NCBI GenBank assembly: GCA_021234155.1
Contig: JAJEKV010000005.1
Location: forward strand, 9,914,572-9,978,571
Source of the DNA: Isoetes taiwanensis
Lineage: Eukaryota; Streptophyta; Lycopodiopsida; Isoetales; Isoetaceae
Length of the DNA: 64,000 bases
Direction: 5' to 3'
How positions within the stretch are numbered: position 1 is the first letter of the stretch; each line of letters begins with the position of its first letter. The notes under the pieces are model-generated. The model had not been told where the DNA came from and did not search any database. It saw only the letters and a list, made by a program, of their open reading frames with translations. Positions 6,933 to 46,995 of this stretch are shown here, in pieces. Position numbers and translations under genes: made by a program.

Positions 6933-6949
6933 AATGAAACTGTCATTGA

Positions 6950-8335: not shown

Positions 8336-8337
8336 TG

Positions 8338-8387
8338 AAATCTGCTGAGATGAATGAGAAGCCTATCTATCATCTCAGCAGATTTCT
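8338..8387. repeat. Perfect 16-bp inverted repeat, start of the GCATGC-rich block
   Basis: GAAATCTGCTGAGATG and its reverse complement CATCTCAGCAGATTTC flank an 18-base loop. The right half also begins the related block at 62996. This looks like a terminal or junction hairpin of the repeat that follows. Confidence 0.75.
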
Positions 8388-9440
8388 ACAATGGTGGACA
8401 GTGGATAGCCGCACACATGCGAACTACCCACGAAAAATAAAGGGAAAATCCAATTATAACATTTGGACCCCAAAAACAAATACAATGCTAATAGATGAGT
8501 GGCTGATGTACTTGCCGAAAGCTTATCACCGGGATTAAAAAACCCCGCCCTTTCGGGTTTTCGAGGAAAAACCCTAGTGATAAGCCTTGACAGCGGGGCT
8601 TAGACAAACGTAAAGCGCGAATCGCCCCAAAAACCAGCGCATGGAGAAGTCAAAACGGATGGCGCCGCCAACCCAATGCACTGCACATCACCAACAACAA
8701 ACGAAAACATACCAAAGAATAGCATCACCCGATTGGGTGGAAAAAAAAGCATCACCCAATCGGTGGAAAAACATGATAAACAGAACTTGTACAAAATATA
8801 GTAAACAAAGAAAGGGGGAGGGTGGGTTCAAAGAGAATAAGGTATGCTGGCGAGAGAAGAAGAAGCGCCGATAAAATGTCGATGAAGAACTCTGCAATAA
8901 GTAGCAAACGCCCATCCTGACGAACGGCCCAAAACGCATGCGATGCATGCATGCGACGATGCAATGCATGCATGCATGCTCGCCTTTGAGCAGAATGCCG
9001 ATTCGCGCTACGAATCGACAACATTCTTGCACTGCGACTCGCATGAAACCAACAAAGCGCCCGAAATACCAAAGGACTTCCTTAACAAACTAGGATCGAG
9101 GGGACGAAGGTCACAGGATGAAGGCTAAAGGCGAAAAAGGACAGCAGGAAAGCAACGCCAAATTGGCCAAACCAGGCAGGAAGAAGCCCCTCCCCTGCCT
9201 GGAGACAAATCAAAGAGAATAAGGTACTGCTGAGAGAAGAAGAAGCGCCGATAAAATGTCGATGAAGAACTCTGCAATAAGTAGCAAACGCCCATCCTGA
9301 CAAACGGCCCAAAACGCATGCGATGCATGCATGCGATGCATGCAATGCATGCATGCATGCTCGTCTTGAGCAAGAATGCCGATTCGCTACGCGAATCGAC
9401 AACATTCTTGCACTGCGACTCGCATGAAACCAACAAAGCG
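8388..9440. repeat. Composite repeat with GCATGC tracts and two ~225-bp units (also at 62996-64000)
   Basis: Two units, 8828-9058 and 9212-9438, share 'caaagagaataaggta', 'cgccgataaaatgtcgatga', a GCATGC/ATGCAT alternating tract and a hairpin around GATTCG...CGAATC flanked by GCAAGAATG/CATTCTTGC. They are about 384 bp apart. The same pair occurs at 63437 and 63818, the second cut by the window end. Long minus-strand open frames here shift between copies and are mostly tract-driven, so I do not call a gene. Confidence 0.8.
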
Positions 9441-9442
9441 CC

Positions 9443-9851
9443 ATACCAAATCATAAAAATTCTTTAAAAAACGTGAGGATTTATAGAAGTACTTTAAAAA
9501 TAAAAAACGGGTCTTTTAACAACATTGTTTCCAATTTTGGGAGGCTAACCAAATTTGGGCGGAGATAGTTTGATCGCTCTCCCTCCAGAAATGGGACTTC
9601 AAAGTTGTACAACATGTATGCGACATGTCTTAGAAAATTTGTATTAAGAAATTAAGGTGTCTTTATGCCAGCAAAATGGACAACCAACTTCCAAGATCAA
9701 GAGCAAAATGAGGATGCTCTTGAAGTCAGCCGTAGTCTAGAAGACACACACTTGTGTTCGGGTGGAAATCATAGAAAGTTGAGATCAACCATTAACATTA
9801 AGGGCTACTTACATCTAGTTAGACCAGTGCCTAATGATATAATATCGTTAG
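9443..9851. repeat. Dispersed repeat, copy 2 (of 251-668)
   Basis: This is a direct copy of 251-668 with small indels. It joins the GCATGC-rich block at 'caaagcgccataccaaat' and runs into pogo copy B at 'gatccccaatgaagag'. These clean junctions show the order of assembly of the composite region. Confidence 0.85.
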
Positions 9852-9858
9852 ATCCCCA

Positions 9859-11248
9859 ATGAAGAGATAAGATTGAGAGAAACTCATGGGCATGAAGATC
9901 ATAGGAAGGAAAGGGGAGAATAGGCTGAATAAATTGTGATGAACACTAGAGAGTGGGTAACCATCTTCCCCAATGAAGAGAAAAGATTGAGAGAAGGTCA
10001 TGGGCATGAAGATCATAGGGAGAAAAGGGGAGAATAGGCTGAATGAAGTTGTGATGAACACTAGAGAGTGGGTAACCATCTTAGTGTGTGGGAATGTTAA
10101 AGGCTTTACAATTCCTAATCTATACGTATTCAAGGGCACTCAAATGAGGCAAGATAACATAGGAAGATGTGAAGAGGGTGCAATTTAGGCTATCCAATCT
10201 TTAGCATCGATGATAACTGAATTGTTTAAATCGTGGTTGTCACACTTTCAATCAAGAGTCCCTAGTCGTGTGTCTCCAGACAGACCGCTCTTAATCATTT
10301 TGGATGATCATGGTAGCCTTGTGGAGCTTGATGTCATTTTGACAGTAAGGACATGGAAATTCATTTTCCCTTGTTGCTTGCATACACATTCCATGGGCTG
10401 CAACCTTTGGATGTTGTTTCTTTTGTATCTTTCAATGCGGCCTTTTCAAGCATATGGGGTTGCTTATATGGTTAGGAAAGGCAGGTTAGAACCTAAGAGG
10501 GAGGAGATTGTTGAGCTGATCTCACTATCCATTAAGATAGGATTGACATCAAGCAACACCAAGGCTAGATTTAGTGAAATTGGTATTTTGCCTTTATATT
10601 CTGAAAGAGTGAGATTAGGCTTGAAAGGTTGTAGGTTTGTTAACCATGTCCTTGCTGAGTCTGTACAGCAAAGGGAAGATGTGCAAGATGGCAATGCCAT
10701 GGGACTTGATGGCAACAACCTTGATGAAGCATGTGTGCAGATGTGCAAATGCATTTGGAAGGACCCCTGGAAGAGATTGTTCATCGATCAAAAACCCAGG
10801 TTGGAAAATGTGATGTTGGATATGTGTATCAAGAACCTAAACATGTGCAACATCAAATTGACAATGTGAAGAGACATGCATTGGATGCTCAAGAGAGAAA
10901 AATAGGAAAAAGGGCCAGTTCGGGCTACACCTTAATGGGTATATATTTTACAAGGAATGGCCTATTATATACTTAGAAAAAATCATATGTCCTTAAAATT
11001 TTTACCATAGCAAATGTATTATTGCTAGTCCCGAAGGGTTTTCGAGGGAAGAACCTTGACACTAATATGTATGCTGAGAAATTGTACAATGATACATTAT
11101 GATACCTTTTAATCTCACTGCAATATCTGAGGACGTAACTGAGTGCATGCATTCATGATCTCTTGGAGATAAGATTCTAGCACATCCACTGGGGTTGTGG
11201 TGAGTAGCACATGGTGCAGCTGGTTAGACAGGATCAATTCAGCACAGA
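9859..11248 (+). pseudogene. Pogo/Tigger-like DDE transposase relic, copy B
   Basis: This copy matches 6950-8335 almost base for base, including the internal ~120-bp duplication, the TAG after CEEGAI and the degenerate LDDHGSL motif. Two small differences join the downstream part into one 219-codon frame (10210-10869), which runs from MITELFKSWLSHF through a frameshift-garbled LQPLDV region to KGRLEPKREEIVELIS. The longest frame is therefore partly out of the ancestral phase and is not evidence of function. The two copies lie in direct orientation and flank 8336-9858. Confidence 0.85.
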
Positions 11249-27123: not shown

Positions 27124-27128
27124 CTTCC
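27124..27128. other. Target-site duplication, left copy (CTTCC)
   Basis: CTTCC precedes the first LTR base and is repeated at 41828-41832 directly after the second LTR. A 5-bp duplication is usual for Ty3/gypsy integration and confirms that the two LTRs belong to one insertion. Confidence 0.9.
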
Positions 27129-28742
27129 TGTGACGTTCTAGGGGAATATACGCTATAAATACGTATATTTCTGGACCCGTCACCATACAAGTCCACCTAT
27201 GTAGCCTTGTATGCCTTAGAAAGTGGCAAGGGGTACACATCTAAGTTAATTGTTTAACTTAGATAACCTTAGGATAAGGCCCATTTCCACATGGCCTTAT
27301 CCTATTGGGCAACCGCCACACAGTCTCATCCTAGTGGTGCCACGTGGCATCCTATGTGGACCCTAACCTATATTAGCATAAACCCTAACCCTAGGCCTCT
27401 TTCCAGCCCCAGCACCCAGAGACTCATCTACGCACTCGAAACCTCGTTTCGAGTATCGTTTGCTGTGGCATAGATTGATGCAGCAGCCCCCCTGAGGGTA
27501 GATCCATTCTTGGAGGGAGAGTAGCTTCACGCGATTCGAAGGCCATGGAGACGCCCGGGATTGGAGGGAGTGCTTCAGGAGCAGGTATGTGGAGTAGTGG
27601 CCATAGTAGTTCATCTGGAATTAGCACTCCAGATGAGTTAGTATCTTGTATCTAGAGTCGAGCCATCCTAGGACCCTCATACATCATCTTGAACCCTAAT
27701 CAAGGAACCCTAACTGTAAGTTAGATTTGTATGATTAGGTTAAGATGTTCTTATGATTATTCTCATGATGTGATGATTATGTGATGACGGTTGATCATGT
27801 TTGCTCCTCTTGTATTGGGAAGGGGGGTAGAGACCTAGAGCCATATGTAATATGCTCCTAGATTAGATCCCTTAGTTCCTATTAGTTGCGGCCTGTGCAT
27901 AGGAACCCACCGGGCTATGGACGGGGCTAGAGGCAAGATGGAGGGAGGATCCCTGCCGAGTGGGGACTACGGGGGATCCCATAGTGGGCTAGGCTTATGG
28001 TCGGTCACCTCGTGTGGGCCGAGCATGGGTCCGACACCTCCTGGGGCGATGGTGTCGCCCTGCCTCTCAAGAGTTGCAAGTGTCAGCTTGGCTCTTGTTT
28101 TGGGGGATTCAGTCGGGTATGAATCGTGTGTCACCATGATTCTCTAGCCGCCCGTGGAGCCTCTAGACCCCGGGAAGGGGAGATGCAACCCTTCCTACCT
28201 CGACGGACCAGGGAGATGCAACCTGGAGTAGTCCCGATGGGTGATGCCATGGGATTGCAATCCCAAGGTTAGAGTCATGTCAGAGCCTGATCTAGCCCAT
28301 CTGCAAAGTATGCACAGGAGGGGCGGATGGAGTGGTCAACCCTAGCCATTGTCTTATGCCAGCCCCGCCATTGTTATGACTCGGTCTGCTCTATCTTGAG
28401 GCCTATCCAGTCAGTCGACTTCCCTATGTGTCGGAGCCCGGGTAGGAGCTCTCCTGTTTTATGGTATATGATTATGTTCATTGCATCTATGGATATGTGG
28501 ATGGGCTACCCTTCGAGGTAGCATTTGTATGGTTGATGTTAGTTCTGACGTGTTTATCGCTTTCGCTGTTATAGGAGCCCATATAGGGGAAGGGCGCGCA
28601 AGACACCTTCGTGTCCCCTCCCCGCACTAGGGTCACCCCAGAGTGCGGGGAAGACGGAGGGCCTGTGCGGTTGTTGAGCCGGATGGGGGATTTCCTGCCG
28701 AGTGTATGGCCGGGTGCCGTATGTTTAGCAGGGAGCGTCACA
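27129..28742 (+). repeat. 5' LTR (1614 bp)
   Basis: It starts TGTGACG and ends CGTCACA, a 7-bp terminal inverted repeat. An inverted repeat, AATATACG...CGTATATT, surrounds a TATAAATA box at about 27152-27159, and CTCGAAAC/GTTTCGAG forms a small hairpin at 27437-27455. Compared with the 3' LTR it lacks about 28 bp around 'gctatgga|cggggctag' (near 27920) and has small changes near 28255 and 28585. Short open frames inside are not genes. Confidence 0.96.
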
Positions 28743-28743
28743 A

Positions 28744-28755
28744 TGGTATCAGAGC
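28744..28755 (+). promoter_or_regulatory. Primer-binding site, initiator tRNA-Met
   Basis: TGGTATCAGAGC begins two bases after the LTR end. It is complementary to the 3' end of plant initiator tRNA-Met, the usual primer of plant LTR retrotransposons. The leader from here to 29358 is AT-rich with no gene. Confidence 0.95.
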
Positions 28756-29358
28756 GATGTGCTTGGTTGACCAGGAACTAGCACTGACCATAACCATGAA
28801 AGTAATCTAACAGGCCTATAGGGGTGTGAAATAAAAAAAAAATTCCACCATCGAACCTCGAAAATAGGAGGAAAATTTTCTCCTAGGTAGTGGGTCCGAA
28901 ATTAGGTTAATTAGACAAAGAAATGAATGAGTCAAATTCATCTTCTAGTAAATTTGGAGTGAAAGTTATGCATCTGCATCAAATTTCACCTAAAATGGGT
29001 CGAAGAATTATGCCAATCTGAGGCCCGAGTGAAAAATGTTGCAAATCCATAATTAATACTTCAAACTATCAGGAAAATTAAAAATTCTAAGGTATAATAT
29101 GAAATTAAGTATGTATACCAGTAATTAAATATATTAATAATTAGGGTACATTGGTGTAATTAATAAGGGGGGCTAATAAGTAGGCCTATTAATGGTAGGA
29201 GAATATTCCCAAGGACCCTCCTTTTTAAATATCCCTGACACCTCATTTTCCCTCCAACATTTCCCTCCACCTTATCTCTCTTGATCAGCCTTACATCATC
29301 CATTTTCTAGACCGTTAAGCAAACAAACAGCTAGGAAGGGGAGAGGCCTACACTCTCG

Positions 29359-30432
29359 ATGGCGCAGGTAGCAGCAGGTCGCCACGTCAAGAAGGTTCCG
29401 CCACACCTTCGACCGAAGCCGGGCGACGAGGCGTTTTCCTCCAGCGATGAGACCTTCCACGTTTCCCAGGAGGAGGGCGCAGGTAGCAGTAGCAGCTCTT
29501 CGTCGGCGGGCACCCAACGAACTGACGAATCCCGCCATTTTGAAGCCTCGACTGATGTGGAGGTGGAGCAATAGGAGGAGAACCAGGAACAGCCGCAGCA
29601 GCAGACCCAAGAGGCGGGCCCTTCGGCAGCAAAGAAGAAGGGCAAGAACAAGGTTGCAGAGTGGCCGGAGGACAGGGCAGCACGAAAGAAGAGAGAGAGT
29701 GAGCTGCTTGAGAAGGAGCGTAGAACTAAGAGGAGGAACGATCGGCCCCGAGGGACCGTAGTGATTGAGAAGCCTCCCCGATGCGAAGAAGAGGAGGTGG
29801 AGGAAGGAGGAGATGGCGAGGAAGACCCGGAGGAGGAAGACAACGAAGTCGTCGGGGAACCTTCAAACCCCGACGCAAGACCACCTTACCCGAAGTGGCC
29901 CACCCCACCCAAGGTGGTCAAGAAGCAGAAGGCCGGCGAGCGACCGTTCGCCCTGAGGGAGGAGCGCCTCTTCAGATGCCGCCTCAAGGCGTACGAAGAA
30001 TACCTCCGTCGTTGGACGAGGTATAACGACTGGTACTGCCGCCAGAACGTCCAGCGCTACGTGGAGGGGAGCCAACCGAGCAAGAACCAGCCCAAGCCTC
30101 TGCCGCCACGACCGGAGAAGCCCAAGAAGGCCCATCACGGGCCAAATTCTAGGCATGCCCGAGTTTTTCGGGAGATTAGGCACTTTCAACAGTGCACTAA
30201 TCTCCTGATTAGGAAGGCACCTTTCGAGCGGCTCATGCGGGAGGTGATGCAGGACTTCGTCACCGACTACAGGGTGACGTCGCTCACAACAAGGGTGTTG
30301 CAGGTTGCTGCGGAGGCCGAGCTCACCCAATTGTTCGAGGAAGGAAACCTCTGCGCGATCCACGCGAAGAGGGTAACGGTGATGCCCAAGGATTTGCACT
30401 TGGCATGCCAGATCCGCAAGGAATATCCTTGA
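29359..30432 (+). CDS. Retrotransposon ORF ending in a complete histone H3 fold (one in-frame TAG)
   Basis: An ATG at 29359 (context tcgATGG) opens a 358-codon frame closed by TGA at 30430-30432, with one in-frame TAG at 29572-29574. Residues 1-71 are Ser-rich. After the TAG come KR- and E-rich stretches, Pro-rich linkers and a segment rich in Arg, Tyr and Trp. The last 87 residues (30169-30429) are a histone H3 core from the alpha-N helix ([10 protein letters not shown]) to the C-terminus ([14 protein letters not shown]). It aligns without gaps to canonical H3, about 53 of 87 identical, including [21 protein letters not shown] and MPKD. Positions of H3 K56 and K79 read Gln and Val; loop 1 has canonical length, so it is not CenH3-like there. 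The H3 N-terminal tail is absent. The ORF is visibly more GC-rich than its flanks. Role unknown; chromatin association is an inference. Confidence 0.9.
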
Positions 30433-30994
30433 GGATAATTTCGTAGTAACGTATGTAAATTGACCAAATTTTCCTTATAAATATATAAAATTTTGTTTTG
30501 TAAATGAATTTGAATTTAGTATGAAATTGTGCTTAATAGCTCAAATTTTACTTTAGTTTTGACCATTAAAATTGGAATGTTCAAAGTAAAATTAATTAGT
30601 AAGCATTCTAATTAAATTAGTCAAAATCTGGAAAAAAAATTCCAAAACCGGGTTGCATCGCGCAAAACCCATCTGCGTTCGCGACGCAGAGCCATTTTGC
30701 GCGAACCAACCCGATTTCAGCGTTCTGACGCTAATTTATGTTCAATTTGCATAAGAAAAGTTGATAGTTAGACTAGGATCATACCAAAAAGTCATATTAG
30801 GATCTCTAAATTTCCTGAAACTCCTCATAGAAACAAAAAAACCTGAAATCGGGTTGCATCGCGCGAATGCTGCCTCCGTTCGCGACGCAGAGCCATTTTG
30901 CGCGAACCAACCCGGTTTCGCCCATTTTTGCCCAATTTGACCAATTTTCATCCAACAAACTGCCATGTAGTGTTTCTTGCTTTGCTTTGTTTAG
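30433..30994 (+). other. AT-rich spacer with two CpG-rich hairpin repeats, possible intron
   Basis: Two copies of a ~72-bp element (30648-30720 and 30850-30920), about 202 bp apart, each start 'gggttgcatcgcgc' and end 'gcgcgaaccaaccc', so each can fold on itself. They share 'ttcgcgacgcagagccattt'. The spacer ends in a strong acceptor-like tract, 'tttgctttgtttag' (to 30994), and a donor-like GTATGT lies at 30452. This suggests that the second ORF may be expressed by splicing. Confidence 0.6.
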
Positions 30995-31632
30995 ATTTGC
31001 GTCAACATCAGGAACCCATCATTCCAGAAGAAGAATTCCAGCAGATCCAAAGCAGGCTGTATAAGCCAGGAAGAGGCCCAAGCTCCAGCCGACCAGTGCG
31101 CTCCAGAAGTATGCGCGAAGCTTCTAGCAGCATCAACTTGGAAAATGCGACTACGATGTGGAGAGATCACGAAGATCTTATAGCAATAGATGTTTTCGGC
31201 GAAGCAGCTTAGAGGAGAGGTACGGGAACCACGTGCCCGAACAGGGGTAAATCACTCAGGTACTATCTTCCGGTCCTTAGCCAAGGGCAGATGATAGTCT
31301 TCCACAAGGAGTTCAGCCCAAGAGGTGAAGAATCCGTGGCGCTCCTCATAGCACTCTCAGGGTTTGGGCAGCATGCCAGAATAGATCACGCAGTAGATCA
31401 TGTTATCCTCTTCAAGAGATCCGTAGCTCTTCATTCTCTCGACTTCGCAAGGGGCCACCTCAGGAATGCACACTTGTCAGTAGTGGCGGCAACGGTACCA
31501 GAACTTCCGGCACCACAGATGGCAAGAGCATTGGAAGGAGGATCAGCGGCAAGAATCCTGCAGAACGTCGGCAAGGGGATAGGATTGAAGAATGTCAAGA
31601 ACTTCTTCAAGTCCATGAGGAGGCACCGATGA
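30995..31632 (+). CDS. Second extra retrotransposon ORF, unidentified (one in-frame TAG)
   Basis: One reading frame runs from the acceptor-like AG at 30993-30994 to TGA at 31630-31632, interrupted by a single TAG at 31210-31212. Before the stop it reads QHQEPIIPEEEFQQIQSRLY, a basic Ser/Arg patch and MWRDHEDLIAIDVFGEAA. After it come GQMIVFHKEFSPRGEESVAL, LIALSGFGQHARIDHAVDHV, FKRSVALHSLDFARGHLRNA and a C-terminal QNVGKGIGLKNVKNFFKSMR. There is no ATG near the acceptor; one in-frame ATG is at 31291. It shares frame and single-TAG damage with the H3 ORF. I found no convincing family match; a histone-fold relationship was considered and not supported. The 31633-31849 spacer ends in an acceptor-like 'tccttgcag'. 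Confidence 0.6.
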
Positions 31633-31947
31633 GAAAAATTTGCTTTGTTAATTAAGTAATTGTATTGAAAAATACTCTCTTCAGTTATTATCATGTACCT
31701 TTATATATATTAATTAATGTCTTACCATGATCTTAATTTGTAAGTGGAATTTTCATATGATTTCTTTTGTGCCTAACAATAATTCAAATATAAATAAGCT
31801 TGATTAATACCTAATCTAAATAACAAGTGTTGATCATCAATCCTTGCAGCAAGGAATTCAGGTGCAGGATCCCAAGACCAGCGCCGACAACACAATCGAG
31901 TACCAAGGAACTTGTTCGGGAGCGAACAAAAAGACATTGAGCAAGAC

Positions 31948-33106
31948 ATGTCACCAGAGGCAATCAACGCAAGGTTGACACAGCTGAGGAACCAAATGCA
32001 ACAGCTGACCCATTGGGCGACACCACTGATGAATGCGCAGGAATATGGTCCTCTACCTCCACCTCCACCCTATGCGCAAGATGGTGACCAAGCCCCTCAG
32101 CAGGAAGGGGAAGGTAACCAGGGAAATGTCAGGGATAGGAGAAGAAAAAGAAGAACCAAGAGCCCAACATCATCTAGCTCAAGCTCAAGCTCATCAGGTA
32201 GCTCTTCCAGTGAGGACAACTCTAGCTCTGACAGTCAGTCTGACACATCTAGAGCAAGGAAAAGGGTAAGGAAAACAGATGAGTACCAGAAGAAAGTTGA
32301 CAGTGCTATGAGCAATGTGCGGAAGACTAGGAAGCTGGATCAATTCTCAAGGAAAGACAGGTCAGGTATGGAGGCCGAAGCTTGGCTTGACGAAATGGAA
32401 GAATTTGGCAACTCCTACGGCATGAAAGATAAAGACATAGGGAAATTTGCTACAGCTAACCTCATTGGTCCAGCAAGGATTTGGTGGAAAGGATATGCGA
32501 AATCTAACAAGCTAAAAAGGAACAATTGCAGATTCAAGACTTTCAGCAAGGCTTTTTCGTAAGCACTATGTGCCAAGATCTCATACTAGCAGGCAGATCC
32601 AGCAGTTTTACAGGTTGAACCAGGGTACCTTGTCAGTAGCAAAGTATACAGAGGAATTTATGCGGCTCAGACTCCATGTTCCCGGAGTATCAGAAAGGCA
32701 AGCGGTTGATACCTACATTGAAGGGTTGAACAGCAATATCAAAAGGCTAGTCCGAGCAATCAACCCAAAATCAGTGGCAGAAGCCGAGGATAAAGCCATA
32801 AGTTTGGAAGAAGCTCCAGCAACGCCAGGGGAGAAACAGTCGGCCTTCAAAGGAAAGTCAACAGGGCAGTACCAAGGGCAGTACCAGAGTAAGCAATCAG
32901 CAGCTACGCCATCAGGAGGCCAGCAGTAAGGAAGAGCTCAGGGTAAGAACTTTGGGGATCGTAAGCCGCAGAATGCATCAGGGGGTAGTGCCCTAAAGCG
33001 TCTTTTAGACAGTCTGACGAAGGAGAAGAGACAGGAGTGTATCGAGAAGAAGCTATGTTTCAAGTGCTTCCAGCCAGGGCACCGGACACATCAATGCCCA
33101 TTCGTC
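31948..33106 (+). pseudogene. gag: gag (capsid and zinc knuckle), frameshifted
   Basis: The Gag frame starts at ATG 31948 or upstream through the acceptor at 31849. It has a Pro-rich stretch, a long Ser run, a basic patch (RARKRVRKTDEYQKK) and a typical Ty3 capsid region: AEAWLDEMEEFG, ANLIGPARIWWKGYAK, then, after a one-base shift at about 32555-32562 in a T run, HYVPRSHTSRQIQQFYRLNQ, AKYTEEFMRL and AVDTYIEGLN. A TAA at 32927-32929 interrupts the second frame. Past it lies the zinc knuckle [14 protein letters not shown] (33056-33097, CX2CX4HX4C). The frame then continues into pol. The shift and the TAA could be decay or, for the TAA, a natural Gag/Pol boundary; one copy cannot tell. Confidence 0.9.
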
Positions 33107-35896
33107 ATGCAGGCAGATTTGGCAGAGCTTGGGGATTGGGATTCACCAACAGAAGCAGATGAAGACGACGACCAGCAGGAGGCCCAGGAATTCATAGATG
33201 GTGAGTGCCATATCTGTGCAAATATTGAGTCAGGTGATATTGAAAATCAGTCGTCAGTCATTGCGGCTGATGGGATCATAGATAATAATCCATATGTAGT
33301 CCTCATAGACACAGGTAGCTCTCACAACTTTGCCTCTCCTAGGCTGGCTGCCCTAATGAAGAACAAGGTATTGAAGTCTAAGCCAAGGCCAGTTAGCATG
33401 GCAAATGGTGCAATTCACCACACTAAGGGGAAGAGGATCACATTTGATATAGACCTTAGTGGAAGTAAGTGGCCGATGGGGGCAGAAGTCATGGATATTG
33501 GAAGGTATGATCTCATAATGGGAATGGAATTTTTGAAGCCAGTCAAAGCCATGATCGACTGTGACCGCAACGAAGTCGCCATGACGGCACCGGACGGCAA
33601 TAAATTTATAGTGAAAGGTAAGAAGGTAGCTTCTCCCATGCAGTGTATTTCTTTGAAGCAGCTAAGGAAGAGTATAGAAAGGAATAAGGTGGACTATATT
33701 TTGAGGCTAGAGACAATTGAGCCCAATAAGCAGGATGGAAGTGGCCAAAAGGGGAATCAGTTGCCCAAGCAGATAGCAAGGCTCATTTCAGAGTTTAAGG
33801 ATGTATTCCCGGATGAAATCCGGCAGCTACCACCTTATAGGGGTGTGGAATGTGAGATCACATTAGCTCCAGACGCTAAGCCTACCAGTAAGGCGCCGTA
33901 TAGAATGAGCACCCCAGAATTGATTGAGCTCAAGAAGCAGCTCCAAGAATTGCTTGAGCTTGGTTTTATTAGAGCAAGTGGGTCTCCTTTTGGAGCACCT
34001 ATACTCTTCGTCAAGAAGAAAGATGGAAGCTTAAGAATGTGCATAGACTATCGCCAGCTCAACAAGCAGACGATAAAGAATAAGTATGCCCTCCCAAGAG
34101 CAGATGATTTGATGGACCAGCTCCAAGGAGCAAAGGTATTTTCCAAGATTGACTTAAGGTCAGGTTACCATCAAATCAGGATAAAGGAGGAAGATATCCA
34201 TAAGACCGCCTTTAGAACGCGGTATGGTCACTTCGAGTTCACAGTCATGCCTTTTGGATTGTCGAATGCTCCAGCAACTTTCATGCGCCTCATGAACGAC
34301 ATTTTCAGGGATTTCTTGGATGAGTTTGTTATTGTTTTCTTCGACGACATTCTAGTCTACATCAAGTCCATTGAAGAGCATTGTCAGCATTTGAGGAAAG
34401 TGTTGGAGAAGTTGAGACGTCATCGGTTGTATGGGAAGTTCTCCAAGTGCCACTTTGCAACAGGTCGAGTGGAATACTTGGGGCATGTGGTAACATCCGA
34501 GGGGATTTCTATAGATCCATCTAAGATCGAGGCAATAGTTGATTGGCCAGCTCCAAGGAATGTAGCAAAAGTAAGAAGCTTTCTCGGGTTGGCGGGATAT
34601 TATAGAAAGTTCGTGAAGGACTTTGCTAAGTGGGCGTCCCCTTTGTCGGACCTCACCAAGGCCAAGAAGATTAAGGATTGGACTAGCCATTGGTTAGAAA
34701 AAGTCCAAGCTTCCTTTGAGAAGCTTAAGGAGGCCTTAACAATAGCTCCAGTGCTTGTTCTCCCGGATCCGAGTAAAGATAAGTTGGTAGCAACGGATGC
34801 AAGCCAGATAGTAACAGGGGCAGTCTTGATGCAAGAAGGAAGGGTAGTCGCCTACGACTCAAAGAAGATGAACGACGCCGAGCAACGCTACCCAACCCAT
34901 GATCAGGAGCTGCTAGCCATTGTCAGGGCATTAAGGATATGGAGGCATTATTTGCTGGGAAGGAAGTTTCAGTTGGATACTGATCACCAGAGCCTCCAGT
35001 ATCTTTTCACCCAGCCACTTCTCAACCTAAGGCAAAGGAGATGGATGGAGTTTCTTGAGGAGTATGATTTTGATATAGTGTATAAGCCCGGCAAGCTTAA
35101 TGTTGTGGCAGATGCTCTCTCTAGGAGACCGTTTGAGACAAGAACGCATTGTAATGCGATTTCCACTCTCTCGAGTGAGTTTGGTAAGAAGATTGAGGAG
35201 ACTTTGCCAGGGGATGAAGATTTCAAGGAGGTATGGGAAAGCCTCTCGAGGGAAGCTAGAACAGATAAGGAACGGGAAGCCTTCAAGCATTGTAAGAAGG
35301 AAGGCAACCTGTTGTATCATAAGCATAAGTTGTGTGTGCCCAAATCATCAGGGGTAAGGAAGCTAATTCTTCATGACACACACAACAGCCCAATAGCAGG
35401 GCATGCGGGATTTATGAAGACCTATTTCAAGATTCGAAGTAGTTATTTCTGGCCAGGAATGAAGAGGCAGATAGCGAGATATATTCGGGAATGCCAGTTG
35501 TGTCAGCAAACCAAAGCAGAGCAGCTTCGGATTCCAGGTGCCTTAGAGCCATTGGGGGTGCCAAATGCTAAGTGGGAGGTCATAAGTATGGATTTTATTA
35601 CAGGACTTCCTAGAACTCTTCGAGGCAAGGATGCATTGATGGTTGTCGTAGACAAGTTATCTAAGATGGCACATTTTGTGCCTTGCAAAACTACGGACAC
35701 CGCTTTAGATACTGCCAAGTTATTTGTAAAGGAGATTTTTAGACTCCATGGCATGCCTCGGGAGATAATATGTGACAGAGATTCTAAGTTTATGAGTGCT
35801 TTTTGGCAGGACCTCTTTAGCACCATTCAGCCGAAGCTCTCCATGAGCACGGCATATCATCCCCAAACAGATGGTCAGACGGAGAGAACAAGGTGA
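33107..35896 (+). pseudogene. pol: pol, 5' part: protease, RT, RNase H, integrase core, truncated by insertion
   Basis: This is a 929-codon frame continuous with the zinc-knuckle frame. Aspartic protease has IDTGSSHNF (DTG at residues 68-70). Reverse transcriptase has [12 protein letters not shown] (Asp 349) and [10 protein letters not shown] (Asp 413-414). RNase H has ATDAS (Asp 564), DQELLA (Glu 601) and TDHQSL (Asp 626). Integrase has the HHCC finger (H759, H766, ECQLCQQTK), Asp 829 in SMDFITGLP, Asp 890 in CDRDSKF and Glu 926 in GQTE, giving DD35E. The last three codons before the TGA belong to an inserted DNA transposon that begins at 35887, two bases into the codon after Glu 926. All catalytic residues are intact; the break separates them from the integrase C-terminus. 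Confidence 0.95.
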
Positions 35897-35920
35897 CCTA
35901 GCAAATGCACTAATGACCTG
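35887..35920 (+). repeat. Left terminal inverted repeat of nested transposon
   Basis: This is the 34-bp left TIR, AACAAGGTGACC through CTAATGACCTG. It differs from the right TIR at position 5 (A versus C) and at one T/C position near its middle. Confidence 0.95.
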
Positions 35921-38530
35921 CATTTGCACCACAAAAAGGAATCTTTCAAAGATTCCCTAAAATACCCTTAAATTCTGCCACTTTTGGGGGGTCACTTAAA
36001 AAAATGACCCTAATTTTACGATTGCATGTGCCATTTTAGGGGCCAAATTTACAAAAAAGTTGGCTTCTTGTTAATTTGATATCCCTAATTTAGGTATAAA
36101 ATAAAAATCTAATTTAGGTGGTTTTGGGACACACATGGAAAGTGGAAAAATGAAAGAATCATCAGAATCTCGATGAATAGTGAAAGCTGAAACGTGGAAA
36201 TGAAGTCGTGTACAACTAAAACAGAAATTGCAAAATGCGCATAGCATAACATAACATCTTGTTGCCTCTGTCTATGCGCACATAGCATAACATAAAATCT
36301 TATTGCTCTGTCTATGTGCGCATAGCATAAATTAAAATCTTGTTGCCTGTGTCTACTGCCTGTGTCTATGCTCGAATCGAGCATAGCATAAAATTTCTTC
36401 TTGAGGTCCCATATAATATAAGAATCCTTTTTTGAGGTATATATTTATGCTCTCTTTGTAAGAGAACTCACTGAAAATAAAAGGGCATGCATAGAGCAAA
36501 AGAATGTTCATTCCAGCTCTGGCTTTTATGGCATGTGTCTAGCTTATTGAATTTAGATCTGTTACATGTTAAAAATAAAGGTTAAGCCCATGCCCGCATA
36601 GCAACACATTGAAATATTCGAGTGAAAGAAAAGCCTATTTGAAAGAATAAGGGTTTTGCTCAATCTTGAAGAATGGCTGTATTCTGGTGGTCGATTCTGG
36701 TCTTTACTGGCTGAATCTAGTCTTCCTAAAAGACTGGTGGAAGCATCCACAACCAATGGCGAACGCAGGTTGCATATTTTGAATGCAAGGTTTAGGGTGG
36801 TCTGTAGCACAGTACAGAGATAGTGGAGCCGTTCTTGAATATGCAGATGCATTCATATTTTATACTGAAGCCATGGCGCCATGAAGCCGTTCTTGAATAT
36901 GCAAGATAGTGGAGCCGTTCTTGAATATTTATGGGTGGTTTGTAGCGCAGTACAGAGATAGTGGAGCCGTTCTTGAATAATCGTTCTTGAATACTGAAGC
37001 CGCTAATACAGAGATGATCATCTCTGCTCATCTCTGCTCATCTCTGTTCAGAAAATAGGGGGACATCTAGAAAGAGGATTTCGTCCACTTTGATAGCTGC
37101 AAACAGCCTTCTTGCTCAGACAAAGGCCTTAAGAAACTGACAAAGTGCGGAATGAGTGCCCGTAATTTCTTCAGTCTCAAACTTAAGGCTTCCTTCGAAT
37201 TAACAGCTCCGAGGATGCCTTAATCGGGCAATTTGGCAAAATATTGTCCCAATCTGAGACCCAAAGCTGCACAATCCGACCCCAATCCAGGCTTTTCATC
37301 ACAAATCAAAGCCATAAAAAATTCACAAAAAGCCCCTTTTTTTCACAGATTTTACCTCCTCCTCCTTCTTCTTAGCTGCCAGGAACGCACTGTAACAGAA
37401 AAACTGCCAAAAATTGTGTGAAACTTGAAGATAAGAAGAAAATTCTGAGGGGAAAAAAAGTGTTTAGCTATGGGCGCATAGCACAAGACTTTTGTCTATG
37501 CGCGCATAGACACTACCTACCAGGTAAAATTCGACCTACTCTTTTTTTAACAACCTACTAGTTTTGTACTCGCCACATCCCACCCAATATTTTCCTACCT
37601 AAATGTTTTACTCCTAACCTAGTTATTCGATGCCACATCCTTTTAATTTTGGTTCCAATGTGCCTACATATATTTCAATTATCTTTTTTTTTTTGCATTT
37701 ATGGCTTGAAAAGGTCCCTAACATAGTCCGCAACATTTGCCCTTAGCTATATCCTTTTCTTTTTTCTCAATATTGGTTATGTGCACAAAACTTGGCTATG
37801 TTCTTTTCCACCTTGTAGATTTCGCACACTGAGCTTGGCAATTTTTTTATCCTTATAGGCAATAACATGACAACCTTTTTCTCTTCTAGTTGGCTCTATG
37901 TGCATAGCTCAACAACATTTCCTCCTCAACCATAGCTAGCAACTTTTTTCCCATGTCTTTGATTGTGTTATGCCTAATTGTTTGTGGTTGTTGTTTCTTA
38001 TTTGCTCACACATTCCACAAACATCTCATAAAGTATTATTCGTGAAAGGACCATTGTTCAACTAGTTAAGCATCATTCAACTGGGTTGCGTAATGTTATG
38101 AATACACGTTTAAGATGTTCCATACCTAGTGCATGCGCCAAATTTTTTGGCACCATATAACTTAAGTTACTAGACCTTCAAGTCTGCCTCGGACTTTGAG
38201 GAAGTTATTCCTGACGTGTTGAGAAGGACGCCCCCCTTGATATTTAATGTGTGTAAAAGAAGTAGTTTAGTATGTGTGCCTATATTACTCTGTTCAATTA
38301 TTGAAATATAACTTCAAAGTCTATGCGCGCATAGACATTCTTCCTTTCCTTTGCATTTCTGTGTCTTAAAAAAGTGTATTTTTTAGTGTGGCTTAAAGCA
38401 AAATGTATCCTCCACTTTTAGTATTGCCCTATTTGAATTGCGGCACCTTTGTTTAGTACTTGTTTTTATAAAAATAGGTAAAAAATGCCGAATTTTTGTG
38501 TTTTTGAAAAAGGAATATGCAATTGCACCA

Positions 38531-38564
38531 CAGGTCATTAGTGCGTTTGCTAGGTCACCGTGTT
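38531..38564 (-). repeat. Right terminal inverted repeat of nested transposon
   Basis: This is the 34-bp right TIR, ending ...GGTCACCGTGTT before the AGAG target duplication. It is the reverse complement of the left TIR except for two positions. Confidence 0.95.
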
Positions 38565-38569
38565 AGAGG

Positions 38570-39361
38570 ATGAATCGAATCATTGAAGACATGCTTCGAA
38601 GCTATGTGTGGAATAAGCAGTCCAAGTGGGATGAGTACATCCACTTGGTGGAATTCGCCTACAATAGCGCCAAGCAGGAGTCATCCCAGATGTCTCCTTT
38701 CATGGTGAATTACGGGTACCAGTGCCTAACCCCGGATACTTGGCACAATCCTGTGTCAAAGGTTGAAGTATCCCAGCAGATGTTAGGAGATATGCAGCAG
38801 CTGGTGGAAGAAGTAAGGGGTTACCTATTAGCAGCAAGAAGTCCGCAGAAGAGTGTAGCCGACAGGGACAGGACCGTAAGGGAGTTTAAAGTAGGCGATA
38901 GTGTGTGGTTGAAGATTAAGGTGAAGCAAGCTAAGCTTCGCATTGGGAGCTGCAAGAAGCTTGCCCCTAGGTGGGCTGGTCCGTTCAAGATTTTGGAGAG
39001 AGTGGGATCCCAAGCCTACAAGTTGGATCTTCCGGCCCATCTTAAAGTTCACAAGGTGTTCCACGTGAGTTTATTGAAAAGGCACAATCCTAACCCTGAA
39101 GAGGTCTTGGATACTCCAACTTTGTTAGAAATGACGGAGGAGCAAGTGGAAATTGTGCCTGAATTGCTTCTTGATAAGTCATTCAAGAAGACTAGGAGAT
39201 CTCAGTTCCTCCAGTATTTGGTCAAGTGGAAGCACTTGCCCGTGGAAGACGCGACATGGGTATTGAAGCAGGATTTGGAGAAGCAATACCCAGAGTTTAT
39301 GAAGGAGTTCGATGGGCGAGTCGTCTCCGACTTGGTCGACCCCGACTTGCCAGGAGGTTAG
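38570..39361 (+). pseudogene. pol: pol, 3' part: integrase C-terminus and chromodomain
   Basis: This 263-codon frame from the ATG at 38570 to TAG at 39359-39361 is the continuation of integrase after the nested transposon. It starts MNRIIEDMLRSYV, the helix that normally follows the catalytic Glu. It contains the GPF/Y module (PRWAGPFKILERVG, residues about 134-147), the conserved LDLPAHLKVHKVFHVSLLK, and a C-terminal chromodomain at about residues 198-248 with FLQYLVKWKHLPVEDATW. The chromodomain identifies the element as a chromovirus; in this group it is thought to target integration by reading histone marks. Any protein made from this piece alone would lack catalysis. Confidence 0.93.
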
Positions 39362-40170
39362 CTAGTATATTTGTTAGTTAGCCTTAAGCCCTGGCCCATG
39401 CATTCTAGTTAGTAGGGTGCATGTGCCAGAACCTTGGATCATGTGGGCGATGATGGGATACGCCTTTAGGGCATTCTCTAGGCCGACATGCACCAAGAGG
39501 TGCGCATGACTAATAGGGTCATGCGAGAGAGGAAGTGAGGCATGGTGCGCGATGATGGGACATCGGTCGGATGCTCTCTATGCCACGATGCGGGGTACGC
39601 ACACTGGGCTGTAGGAGGGCCATGGTGAAGGTCAAAGTGATCATGCGCGATGATGGGATCGTGAGACGTTCCCTAGCTTAAAACCCTTGGGGCATGATGC
39701 ACTAGGGGTACTCGGAACCGGGTAGCCGAGTACAAGGTAGCACTTGATCATGGGCAATGATGGGATCACCTTAAATGGTCCTTAAGCTCAAATCCGAAAT
39801 GGCCATGATCGAGTGCAAGGTATCGTAAGGGGGTGGTCCCCTAAAACCACAAATTTATTAATCAAACTAACGTAATGTGCTCCTTGTGCAGGCAAGTGAG
39901 AAGCGAGCATCGAGGTGGGGCGCATTACGAGAAGATGGGGGAACCATAATTTAGATTATGAACCCTAATAACTCTTATAGTAATGTTTGAATAAGGAACC
40001 TTGTTAAGGCTATATAATTTTGTATAAGTACAAATATAGTCTAAATTTTGACATTTAACTCTTTAGTAGGAAGTTGATCGTTTAAATTAAATTTAAATGC
40101 ATGTTCTTATGATTGTTTTGCAGGATAGAGTAGGTTCGTCACCTTAGCGCAATGCTGAGGACAGCATTGT
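39362..40170 (+). other. Long 3' untranslated region with four GCGATGATGGGAT repeats
   Basis: Four copies of a motif of the type 'catgcgcgatgatgggatc' occur at about 39438, 39544, 39640 and 39747, roughly 100 bp apart. They are set in otherwise divergent sequence. Two acceptor-like sites, 'ccttgtgcag' (near 39891) and 'gttttgcag' (near 40123), follow. No coding frame is visible. The motif could be an RNA packaging, dimerisation or processing signal; that is inference. Confidence 0.65.
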
Positions 40171-40173
40171 CCT

Positions 40174-40186
40174 AAGGGGGGGAGAA
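40174..40186 (+). promoter_or_regulatory. Polypurine tract
   Basis: 'aaggggggggagaatg'-type purines directly precede the 3' LTR. This is the plus-strand priming site expected at this position. It follows 'gaggacagcattgtcctaag', a phrase common before the PPT in plant Ty3/gypsy elements. Confidence 0.92.
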
Positions 40187-41827
40187 TGTGACGTTCCAGG
40201 GGAATATACGCTATAAATACGTATATTCCTGGACCCGTCACCATACAAGTCCACCTATGTAGCCTTGTATGCCTTAGAAAGTGGCAAGGGGTGCACATCT
40301 AAGTTAATTGTTTAACTTAGATAACCTTAGGATAAGGCCCATTTCCACATGGCCTTATCCTATTGGGCAACCGCCACACGGCCTCATCCTAGTGGTGCCA
40401 CGTGGCATCCTATGTGGACCCTAACCTATATTAGCATGAACCCTAACCCTAGGCCTCTTTCCAGCCCCAGCACCCAGGGACTCATCTACGCACTCGAAAC
40501 CTCGTTTCGAGTATCGTTTGCTGTGGCATAGGTTGGTGCAGCAGCCCCCTGAGGGTAGATACGTTCTTGGAGGGAGAGTAGCTTCACGCGATTCGAAGGC
40601 CATGGAGACGCCCGGGATTGGAGGGAGTGCTTCAGGAGCAGGTATGTGGAGTAGTGGCCATAGTAGTTCATCTGGAATTAGCACTCCAGATGAGTTAGTA
40701 TCTTGTATCTAGAGTAGAGCCATCCTAGGACCCTCATACATCATCTTGAACCCTAATCAAGGAACCCTAACTGTAAGTTAGATTTGTATGATTAGGTTAA
40801 GATGTTCTTATGATTATTCTCATGATGTGATGATTATGTGATGACGGTTGATCATGTTTGCTCCTCTTGTATTGGGAAGGGGGGTAGAGACCTAGAGCCA
40901 TATGTAGTATGCTCCTAGATTAGATCCCTTAGTTCCTATTAGCTGCGGCCTGTGCATAGGAACCCACCGGGCTATGGAAGCTATGATGTGACTCAGCACT
41001 ACATAACGGGGCTAGAGGCAAGATGGAGGGAGAATCCCTGCCGAGTGGGGACTACGGGGGATCCCATAGTGGGCTAGGCTTATGGTCGATCACCTCGTGT
41101 GGGCCGAGCATGGGTCCGACACCTCCTGGGGCGATGGTGTCGCCCTGCCTCTCAAGAGTTGCAAGTGTCAGCTTGGCTCTTGTTTTGGGGGGTTCAGTCG
41201 GGTACGAATCGTGTGTCACCACGATTCTCTAGCCGCTCGTGGAGCCTCTAGACCCCGGGAAGGGGAGATGCAACCCTTCCTACCTCGACGGACCAGGGAG
41301 ATGCAACCTGGAGTAGTCCCGATGGGTGATGCCATGGGATTGCATATCCGGAAGGTTAGAGTCATGTTTGAGCCTGATCTAGCCCATCTGCAAAGTATGC
41401 ACAGGAGGGGCGGATGGAATGGTCAACCCTAGCCATTGTCTTATGCCAGCCCCGCCATTGTTATGACTCGGTCTGCTCTATCTTGAGGCCTATCCAGTCA
41501 GTCGACTTCCCTATGTGTCGGAGCCCGGGTAGGAGCTCTCCTGTTTTATGGTATATGATTATGTTCATTGCATCTATGGATATGTGGATGGGCTACCCTT
41601 CGAGGTAGCATTTGTATGGTTGATGTTAGTTCTGACGTGTTTATCGCTTCCGCTGTTATAGGAGCCCATAGGGGAAGGGCGCGCAAGACACCTGCGTGTC
41701 CCCTCCCCGCACTAGGGTCACCCCAGAGTGCGGGGAAGACGGAGGGCCTGTGCGGTTGTTGAGCCGGATGGGGGATTTCCTGCCGAGTGTACGGCCGGGT
41801 GCCATATGTTTAGCAGGGAGCGTCACA
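40187..41827 (+). repeat. 3' LTR (1641 bp)
   Basis: It starts TGTGACGTTCC and ends CGTCACA before the CTTCC target duplication. It has about 28 bp that the 5' LTR lacks (around 40980-41007). In this copy the inverted repeat GGAATATACG/CGTATATTCC around TATAAATA is perfect at 10 bp. The short frames repeated in both LTRs are not genes. Confidence 0.96.
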
Positions 41828-41832
41828 CTTCC

Positions 41833-43581: not shown

Positions 43582-45100
43582 TTGAAATCTAAAACTGAAA
43601 CCTGCATAATTGCATGTTCTTCTATTTCCTCGTGTTGTATTGCAGAAGAGGGGAGGGATGATGCCAGGAGTGGTTATGTTAAAGAAGGGGCCATGATGGA
43701 AGACCCACTAGATTGCGTTGCAGTTGAAGAGGTTGTAGGCAAATTTGCCCATATGGCCGAGAAGTGTGAGAATGCCATAAATTTGGCTGGGGCCATGCAA
43801 AATTGTCGAGAATTCAGAGCACCTTTTGGAAGTATTGTTGATGGATTACAAAAGATTGTCAAAGACTAAGAACAAGGCCAAGAAAGGGAGATAGCTTCGA
43901 TTCAACAAACCAAACTTGACGTTGCTCATAAAGCCCACAAGGAAGGGGCTAATCTATGGGCAACTGCAGCAATTGCAGCCGTAGAAGCATTGGCCCATTC
44001 TGGCACTGCGGCATCTAATGCAGCCATAGCCACAAACAAAGAGCACACAAGAGGCAACAAAAGCAAAAGATATTTATGTGATGAAATCTATTCCACACAA
44101 AAATCCCATGGATGTTGAGATGAGATTGGATTTGGAAGAAATGGTTGTAAGGCCAAGAATAGGGCAGCTAAAATCACGTCAAAAGATGATAATGATGTCG
44201 AAATTGAAGACCAATTGCTTGGAAACCGGATTGCTAATCATGCCCATGAAAATCCACGGATGCCAAGACATGTTGCAGAGACAAATTTTGGGGTTGCCAG
44301 ATACAGCAATAGAAAACCCGGTGCAGATGGAGACATTGTTGAGGCTCACCTTAAAGAACAAGTCATTGGAGATAGACAGAAGGAAGTCGTGCCCCAAGTG
44401 GATAGCAAGATAAAGCCCACAAGGAAGGGGCTAATCTATGGGCAACTGCAGCAATTGCAGCCGTAGAAGCATTGGCCCATTCTGGCACTGCGGCATCTAA
44501 TGCAGCCATAGCCACAAACAAAGAGCACACAAGAGGCAACAAAAGCAAAAGATATTTATGTGATGAAATCTATTCCACACAAAAATCCCATGGATGTTGA
44601 GATGAGATTGGATTTGGAAGAAATGGTTGTAAGGCCAAGAATAGGGCAGCTAAAATCACGTCAAAAGATGATAATGATGTCGAAATTGAAGACCAATTGC
44701 TTGGAAACCGGATTGCTAATCATGCCCATGAAAATCCACGGATGCCAAGACATGTTGCAGAGACAAATTTTGGGGTTGCCAGATACAGCAATAGAAAACC
44801 CGGTGCAGATGGAGACATTGTTGAGGCTCACCTTAAAGAACAAGTCATTGGAGATAGACAGAAGGAAGTCGTGCCCCAAGTGGATAGCAAAATTCCAGAA
44901 AAAGAAAGAATCTCCAAGAAGGGATGGCGCCTCGAGAATTTAAGGGCATGAAGGCAGTTAATATTACAGCAAGTAATTTTGATGCTGCACAAATGATTAT
45001 TGTTAGTATCGAAGCTAATGAAGAAGAAGCTGGAGACCTAGATCTTGGGGCAGAATTGACACTAGAAGATCTATATGCTGACATTGGAAATCTTTAGCTC
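43582..45100 (+). pseudogene. Degenerate gag-like coding region with 482-bp tandem duplication
   Basis: Downstream of the PBS-like site a frame reads DPLDCVAVEEVVGKFAHMAE and FGSIVDGLQKIVKD, then a TAA. Still in frame it continues EREIASIQQTKLDVAHKAHK, WATAAIAAVEALAHSGTAAS and, after another stop, DVEIEDQLLGNRIANHAHEN. The last pieces are present twice because of the duplication. After it, another frame reads MKAVNITASNFDAAQMIIVS and LTLEDLYADIGNL to a stop at 45098-45100. Position after a PBS suggests Gag, but no Gag motif is recognisable. Confidence 0.35.
43928..44890. repeat. Exact 482-bp tandem duplication
   Basis: 43928-44409 is repeated immediately at 44410-44890, with no difference that I can find by eye. 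The breakpoint is at 'ATAAAGCCCAC'. Such identity beside decayed sequence means a very recent duplication or an assembly artefact. Confidence 0.9.
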
Positions 45101-45479: not shown

Positions 45480-46995
45480 GGCATGATCGAAGATGTAGAA
45501 GGAAGGATAAAATCCTTCAGTACCAGGCTTAAGATTGTTCCAGATGCTCACCATCTTGAATTTGTGGTGCTTGGTCATTTTGCACATCAGTTGGGAGTTG
45601 TCCAGGTAAGGCCTCCCATAGCTAGTGCACTTCTGCCATGTCAAACCCTTCCATTGGTGCATCTGGATGGCACTCTTCTCCAGCCTGCTCCCGGCCTTCT
45701 GTAAGGTCTTCAACATGCACCCTCCCAAACCTGGTACACTCTTGGCCTGGCTTAACTTTTTCCTGGTCAAAGGGCCAAATATCAGTGGCCCTAAAACCTG
45801 CCTTGATGTTGTGGGGTGTTAGGCCACATGCAATTGACTGTGAAATCAATTCTGCTATCTCCTCCCTTTTTGGCTCTGCCCTCCCTTTGCTAACCATGTA
45901 GGCAGATCTAAGTCTCTTGAATGATGCCTTGAAAGGGGAAAAACATGCCACATTAAGAGGTTGAAGCCGATGAGACGTGTGTGCAGGCAATAAGGCAAAG
46001 TGAATGCCCTTCTCTCTCAATATGACTTCTAGATCTACATGGCTGCCATGACCATCCAAAATGATAAGGTGAGGCTGATCTGGGGATATACCTCCTGGGA
46101 CTCTTGCTGCAAAATGTGACAGCCATGATTTAAACAATTCTGATGTCATCCAAGCTGAAGTCTGGACAGCCTGAATGGCACCCTCTTCACATCTTGCAAT
46201 GTTGTCCTGCCTCATTCGACTACCTTTAAATATGTACATGTCGGGGATCCTATACCCCTCAGCATTTACACATACCAAAATTGTTACCCACTCCCTGTTG
46301 TTCATGACGACCTCACTCACCCTGTTTCCCTCCTTCCTAGCTATGATTTTCAACCCCTTCACTTTCCCTGTCTAAATTCCAGTCTCATCAGCGTTCCAAA
46401 TCCTTGAGGCGTGGAAGACAAATTCAGCATAAATCTGCTTAAGCCCGACATAAAAGTTGTTGAGGTTCTCCTGGGTCATGGCAGGAGCCCTAGCTACATC
46501 TAGGGTTTTTGCACTCCTGAGTGCAACTTCGGGATGTCTTTGCTTAAATAGCTTCCACCACTTACTGCCTGGTACTCCAGATATCCCACAAGACCCCCCT
46601 GCTCTAGCCATCTCTGCTGCCTTTTTCTTGACCGCAGATAGGGTAACTCCCATTTCTTGCTCTGCAATGCTAAGGGCCCAATTAACTAGCTCCTCCTCTT
46701 GGAGAGTTGTCAATATTTATGGATGGTTTGTTTGCTTGTGGGTTGTTCTATCATATAGCCAATCTTGGATTGTGGATTCTGTTATACCAGACCTCCTTGA
46801 TGCCTTTCTAATCGAAATGCCTAGTTCACTTACCTCTTCAAGGATGTCCACCATTTGCTCCTCAGTCCATTGGTCTCTCCTACTCGGCCTCCTCGGCATT
46901 GGACTGGTAGCATCACTGCCTTGTGGTGCCCTCTTCTTTGTCCTAGGCACACAGACTCTTAGATGATGCCGGTCTCCTGGTACCTCTATCAGCAT
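45480..46995 (-). pseudogene. Pogo/Tigger-like DDE transposase, nearly full length with two in-frame stops
   Basis: One frame covers the protein with stops at 46717-46719 (TAA) and 46372-46374 (TAG). The N-terminus has MPRRPSRRDQWTEEQMVDIL and GISIRKASRRSGITESTIQD, a psq-type helix-turn-helix. Then a CENP-B/Tc5-type domain includes GSKWWKLFKQRHPEVALRSA. The catalytic core has WNADETGI (first Asp), LIILDGHGSHVD (second Asp) and HTSHRLQPLNVACFSPFK. There, the third catalytic residue is Asn where the family has Asp (LQPLDV, still Asp in the relics near 7500 and 10410). The spacing from the second to the third position is 33 residues, fitting pogo DDxD. With two stops and the D-to-N change it cannot be active. 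Terminal repeats were not located. Confidence 0.92.

Follow-up and report, generated by a model that had tools for sequence, protein, structure and literature searches.

A plant retrotransposon of the Ty3/gypsy type carries, between its primer-binding site and gag, a reading frame that ends in a histone H3 domain and in which the usual H3 tail is replaced by a long sequence of different character. The element lies within the window, i.e. the whole 64-kb stretch of DNA that was analysed. As a tentative reading, we suggest that a plant chromodomain Ty3/gypsy element gained a canonical-type H3 long before the present insertion, and that it keeps the gene, as an additional ORF with a swapped tail, in the interval from primer-binding site to gag. 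The H3 ORF is known here from one damaged copy.

The retrotransposon occupies positions 27129-41827, and both of its ends are inside the window. An LTR pair with TG..CA ends and a target-site duplication, the order protease, RT, RNase H, integrase, and a chromodomain on the integrase (Pfam match, E 1.9e-11) identify it as a Ty3/gypsy chromovirus. Compared over 1611 sites, the two LTRs differ by 24 transitions, 6 transversions and 4 gap events, corresponding to a K2P distance of 0.0189 (about 1.9%). The primer-binding site, TGGTATCAGAGC, is what we take to be the usual one in plants, complementary to initiator tRNA-Met, and a purine run is located 5' of the 3' LTR. The placement of the H3 domain proposed in the first-pass annotation, in an ORF inside a Ty3/gypsy element between primer-binding site and gag, is borne out by the primer-binding site at 28744-28755 and by a gag located 3' of the ORF (Table 1). 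Outside the H3 frame, the lesions of the examined copy are a frameshift and a stop in gag, the DNA insertion in the integrase, and the expected gag start, which is without an in-frame ATG.

Table 1. Coordinates of the features of the retrotransposon and its leader, numbered from the first letter of the window.
Feature	Position	Strand	Remarks
Target-site duplication, left copy	27124..27128		CTTCC
5' LTR	27129..28742	+	1614 bp; TGTGACG...CGTCACA; pairs with 40187-41827
Primer-binding site	28744..28755	+	TGGTATCAGAGC; just inside the 5' LTR
TATA-like motif	29224..29231	+	TTTAAATA; from motif scan; followed by a pyrimidine-rich stretch (GC skew -0.42, 29200-29349)
H3 ORF, first 71 codons	29359..29571	+	acidic, Ser-rich
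In-frame TAG stop of the examined copy	29572..29574	+	
Rest of the replaced tail, 196 codons	29575..30162	+	basic, acidic and Pro-rich blocks; two predicted helices
Histone H3 domain, alpha-N to C-terminus, 89 codons	30163..30429	+	stop at 30430-30432
Two similar hairpin units	30634..30919	+	85% identical; z -7.85 and -4.72; between the H3 ORF and the next ORF
Possible second additional ORF	30985..31632	+	in-frame TAG at 31210-31212; between the H3 ORF and gag
gag	31834..32929	+	frame open from 31834; frameshift near 32560; stop at 32927-32929
pol: protease, RT, RNase H, integrase core	33107..35893	+	
DNA insertion splitting the integrase	35892..38559		terminal inverted repeats starting GGTGACCTAGCAAA
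Integrase C-terminus and chromodomain	38570..39361	+	
3' LTR	40187..41827	+	1641 bp; start TGTGACG, end CGTCACA
Target-site duplication, right copy	41828..41832		CTTCC

The closest protein among 120 listed matches is P0146, a gag-pol of 1602 residues. From late gag to the integrase core inclusive it is 70% identical to the window (1130 columns); for the integrase C-terminus and chromodomain the value is 80% (260 columns), and for early gag 56% (158 columns). The alignment stops at 35890 and resumes at 38567, thereby bracketing the DNA insertion. An RT tree was built from 25 rows, of which 24 were picked by hand from the 120 listed matches; in it the element groups with P0146 (100/99) and is placed among plant chromodomain elements. 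The tree is unrooted and was drawn with a midpoint. A neighbouring group of 19 rows (97/97) includes all four pine rows and eight out of nine named flowering-plant rows, whereas three Closterium rows and a long-branched grass row (Lolium) are found outside, joined in a way that the program flags as possibly false. This placement suggests that the host is a land plant but not a seed plant. The lineage name of the element is presumably Tekay.

By eye, the conserved N-terminus of gag (31834-31950) extends 5' of the first in-frame Met (31948), toward an AT-rich stretch. Since this conserved part begins 5' of every in-frame ATG, gag may be spliced or its start may have been lost. The possible second additional ORF located upstream of gag holds one in-frame stop, as against 7.87 on average in shuffled sequences. 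Its codon periodicity is not significant (matched in 89 out of 1000 shuffles), and it gave no family match over the cut-off.

Inspection of the frame from 29359 to 30432 revealed an ATG that opens 71 codons in all, a TAG as codon 72, 285 further codons and a stop. What had been described as one ORF with an ATG of its own does have that ATG, at 29359, but it is not a single open frame, and the intact frame expected of a conserved additional ORF is missing from the examined copy. Given the TAG at codon 72, this copy is unable to make the protein without read-through. The next in-frame ATG after the TAG, at 30235, is already within the H3 domain, and the 223-aa ORF in the list of reading frames starts at a GTG (29761). 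Other parts of the original description agree well with our results: about 270 residues in place of the H3 tail (about 267, when both sides of the TAG are counted), and a stop at the natural C-terminus of H3, found at 30430-30432.

The profile search that had been proposed for the domain returned PF00125, the Pfam Histone family, on the piece downstream of the TAG with 97.4 bits and an E-value of 9e-28 (cut-off 26.4). As PF00125 spans all core histones, the assignment to H3 rests on a phmmer search and on an alignment with canonical H3. Against PDB, phmmer matched H3 chains with E-values of about 2e-29 over 87 ungapped columns, and the best 60 of 178 PDB matches are all H3 or H3-like by name. 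Chance similarity to H3 is excluded by the Pfam and phmmer matches. When aligned with canonical H3, taken from P0024, 54 of the 89 residues are identical and 35 are changed, with no indel from alpha-N to alpha-3; the earlier estimate had been about 53 identities over some 87 ungapped residues. The canonical N-terminal tail (ARTKQTARKS..) is absent.

Changes relative to canonical H3 include K56 to Q, K79 to V, R128 to C, R129 to Q and R134 to Y. R63, K64, R69, R72, R83, C110, H113, K115, R116, T118, D123, L126 and I130 are kept, positions that we take to be DNA-, H3-H3'- and chaperone-contact residues. The changed R129 is presumably a chaperone contact as well, and Q at position 56, if we may speculate, would resemble the acetylated state of K56.

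AlphaFold models were obtained for the piece 29578-30429 (mean pLDDT 59.1 in the H3 part, pTM 0.26 for the whole piece) and for the H3 domain alone (mean pLDDT 55.6, pTM 0.31), from shallow alignments of 12 and 9 rows, respectively, and in both cases without H4 and without a canonical-H3 control; confidence in the H3 domain is low in both. The predicted helices follow the H3 order in both models. A Foldseek search with the model of 29578-30429 gave 18 PDB matches, 15 of them at E<=0.001, with rmsd values of 10-13 A. The top 16 are histone or H3-chaperone entries and the last two are TAF complexes with E above 7. The putative H3 fold is assigned on the basis of the sequence rather than of these predicted models.

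An H3 core with a replaced tail is also what plant CENH3 proteins possess. A centromeric origin could be suspected from the stretch 'EIRHFQ..TNLLI', which resembles plant CENH3, yet this candidate was rejected. The domain of the element aligns with canonical H3 without a gap in loop 1, unlike plant CENH3, and scores 261 with canonical H3 as against 152-195 with four CENH3 cores, the two plant ones scoring 152 and 186 (all four CENH3 sequences being provisional). Neither the longer loop 1 nor the affinity to plant CENH3 that would mark a CENH3 was thus found in comparison with these provisional sequences. In an H3 tree of 21 rows the domain has a long branch of its own (1.05) and does not fall within the plant CENH3 pair (97/92); it is not separated from human CENP-A, yeast Cse4, canonical H3 and others, and 16 of the 18 inner branches of this tree are open.

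The part of the replaced tail that follows the TAG is coding-like. For codons 29575-30162 the frame stayed open in only 3 out of 1000 dinucleotide shuffles, and the codon-position GC pattern was matched in none of the 1000. The first 71 codons alone behave like chance sequence (208/1000 shuffles open, periodicity matched in 227/1000). For the H3 domain alone the open frame is not significant (68/1000), and its periodicity was matched in 0/1000. A negative periodicity result means little, because the gag frame, which is real coding sequence, shows no periodicity either (779/1000 shuffles match).

The 196 tail residues comprise 45 K/R, 38 D/E and 24 prolines, and a motif scan of the tail found no ARKS, the context of K9 and K27 in H3. 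AlphaFold predicts two helices in the piece 29578-30429, at its residues 30-54 and 123-162, with block means of pLDDT of 83-89 and 77-91, respectively, in the helix cores. The proteins P0001, P0002 and P0013 (449, 483 and 362 residues) likewise join a full H3 domain to a long N-terminus of foreign sequence. Their H3 domains are nearer to canonical H3 than that of the element, with 13, 12 and 18 changes, and in the alignment their N-termini have no conserved columns in common with the tail of the element.

The LTRs differ by 1.9% while the domain is changed at 35 of 89 residues, so that the divergence of the H3 predates the insertion, whether it arose within the element or earlier, in a donor gene of the host. 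The same figures exclude that an ordinary H3 gene was captured recently. The domain is a canonical-type H3, gained well before the insertion or from an already diverged host variant. A separate origin from the rest of the element is hinted at by GC content at third codon positions, which is 0.65-0.74 in the H3 ORF, whereas pol has 0.505, gag 0.48-0.50 and the integrase C-terminus 0.61.

The pattern of replacements in the H3 domain shows signs suggestive of constraint. The replaced sites are those that vary among other H3s (mean variability 0.40 vs 0.17), a difference matched by 0/2000 neutral simulations at kappa 2 and 0/2000 at kappa 6. This first test used 12 of the 18 matches of our protein search, with P0004, P0006, P0008, P0010, P0017 and P0018 left out by hand, and it is biased in favour of constraint since the comparison proteins were found by their similarity to the ORF itself. 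A retest with an independent set, the four provisional CENH3 cores, gave a weaker result (0.46 vs 0.26; 5/2000 simulations; rank test p 0.0065). The absence of stops from the H3 domain is not significant alone (P 0.18-0.21), nor is the mildness of the replacements (P 0.20-0.29). Selection on a host gene prior to capture could account for this constraint, which is not assignable to the time spent inside the element.

A search of 5.8 billion proteins, within a limited length range, returned 18 matches. Fourteen of these cover roughly the H3 domain (23-31% of the query), and P0005, P0007, P0008 and P0012 span 39-45%, reaching partway into the basic end of the tail; none of the 18 is related to the ORF across the tail. 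H3 domains in proteins of 247-786 residues gave 4900 matches, of which 120 were listed, at 76-85% identity to the domain of P0001. Many of these 120 are histone H3-like or uncharacterized proteins from animals and plants. No relative was found in viral contigs scanned with the H3 piece, P0001 and pol, in plasmids, or in genome contigs scanned with P0146 and with the H3 ORF piece. The collections searched hold viral, plasmid and prokaryote records, and their silence on a plant element therefore says little. PHROGs and NCBIfam gave nothing over the cut-off, apart from which an archaeal-histone match was seen below threshold (E 0.076). Two regions in large IMG/VR contigs of 74-87 kb (L001:10001-10255 and L002:10001-10252) were matched by the H3 alignment with 31-32% identity.

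Carriage of H3 by a mobile element is already known. In Pyrenophora tritici-repentis a hAT element carries the H3-like gene H3L, present in 10 long copies and 16 short ones (PMC3538342), and the 471 hAT elements of Pseudocercospora fijiensis that were described contain 784 H3-like sequences, of which RIP inactivated all except the original (PMC6710886), as given in the available parts of these reports. As far as these sources go, the fungal elements, which also include those of Cercospora and Sphaerulina, amplify an H3-like sequence as an extra ORF, as the present element does, but they are DNA transposons that took their H3 from an ordinary H3 transcript, and the Pseudocercospora, Cercospora and Sphaerulina copies are dead through RIP. 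The element studied here is instead an LTR retrotransposon whose H3 domain has diverged strongly and is joined to a new tail, about 267 residues in length. No convincing pair of terminal inverted repeats was found around its H3 ORF, and the ORFs scanned hold no hAT domain.

Extra coding regions beside gag-pol and within the LTRs are described from plant LTR elements, mostly between pol and the 3' LTR, unlike the H3 ORF (PMC7264820, available portion). The word 'histone' is absent from the accessible part of that review, and the accessible part of a review of LTR-element host factors treats additional ORFs and histone marks but no histone-encoding element (PMC12786077). Among the matches listed from the open-licence PMC literature we found no report of a histone-carrying LTR retrotransposon. 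The view that no retrotransposon with H3 had been described thus stands for LTR elements, where H3 is apparently not reported, and has to be qualified for mobile elements at large, in which the fungal hAT transposons came before, going by the available text (PMC3538342, PMC6710886).

A role in chromatin may be proposed for the H3 ORF. That an anciently captured H3 has been retained as an additional ORF we consider somewhat better than an even proposition, and, given such a capture, it is fairly probable that the product acts on chromatin. Plant transposon silencing uses H3K9 and H3K27 methylation. Intact copies of the family would exist and encode a nuclear H3-like protein, which may pair with host H4 and enter nucleosomes or bind H3 chaperones. 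With the canonical tail and its methylatable K9 and K27 lost, nucleosomes containing this protein would be without silencing marks in their usual context, and the likeliest benefit to the element would then be resistance to silencing by H3K9/K27 methylation, more so than the marking or packaging of DNA. Overall, anti-silencing in particular appears rather unlikely to us. The fuller proposal, that a plant chromovirus family encodes a counter-silencing histone, a tail-swapped H3 that enters host nucleosomes and denies them H3K9/K27 methylation sites, is unlikely as well, and slightly more so. We place counter-silencing ahead of both packaging and the steering of integration; the main reading is closely followed by that of an inert passenger. 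If true, a tail-less H3 of its own would be a direct counter-move of the element to host silencing, it would become possible to test from the side of the parasite what the H3 tail does in silencing, and capture of H3 by mobile elements would extend from fungal DNA transposons to LTR retrotransposons.

Translation of the H3 ORF by simple scanning from an unspliced LTR transcript is unlikely, as 12 ATGs are located between the LTR and the ATG of the ORF. Expression could be served by TTTAAATA as a weak candidate for a promoter of its own, or by splicing; a splice-site scan of the leader gave loose candidates only.

Ancient capture with retention has to be weighed against the possibility, doubtful in our judgement but a serious one, that this copy or its sub-family took a fragment of a diverged host H3-like gene with an odd tail by template switching and derives no benefit from it. 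One copy is known and it carries an in-frame stop, the base composition is unlike that of gag and pol, and plant LTR elements commonly transduce genes according to the available parts of two reports (PMC7264820, PMC13317346). On the other hand, the lesion load of the H3 frame, 1 stop in 358 codons, is similar to that of gag-pol, with 1 frameshift and 1 stop in 1548 aligned columns (the DNA insertion uncounted), numbers that are too few for a test. Furthermore, no host protein with this tail was found among the proteins searched, in a database that may lack the host. A benefit of another kind, in which the H3-like protein packages the cDNA or acts with the chromodomain in steering integration, would be in keeping with the presence of a chromodomain in the same element and with the basic blocks and long predicted helices of the tail. 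We consider it improbable; a K9-reading chromodomain would find no target in a tail lacking ARKS.

It is also conceivable, if quite unlikely, that the ORF is not part of the retrotransposon at all, and that a host retrocopy or an H3-carrying DNA transposon landed in the leader. The ORF is a GC-rich island (53-62%) flanked by AT-rich stretches, a TATA-like motif and a pyrimidine-rich leader are located 5' of its ATG, and H3-carrying hAT elements exist in fungi. Yet no convincing pair of terminal inverted repeats with a target duplication surrounds 29359-30432 among 21 inverted pairs, and those that span the ORF (29069-29090/30797-30818, for example) do not stand out from the rest and, as read, are without a duplication. 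The leader ORFs scanned have no transposase domain over the cut-off, the weak Recombinase match in 30985-31209 having an E-value of 0.051, and by reading there is no clear poly(A) tail, with a run of eight As 200 bases downstream.

Elsewhere in the window, the region 6949-11248 consists of two direct copies of 1.39 kb (98.8% identical) on either side of a central segment, which is found again at 63000-64000 (91%). Part of the sequence of the copies matches the DDE_1 transposase ORF at 45622-46362 in inverted orientation (about 71%), and the ORF at 10210-10866 gave no Pfam match. A tandem duplication of 484 bases, with 99.8% identity, is located at 43928-44893.
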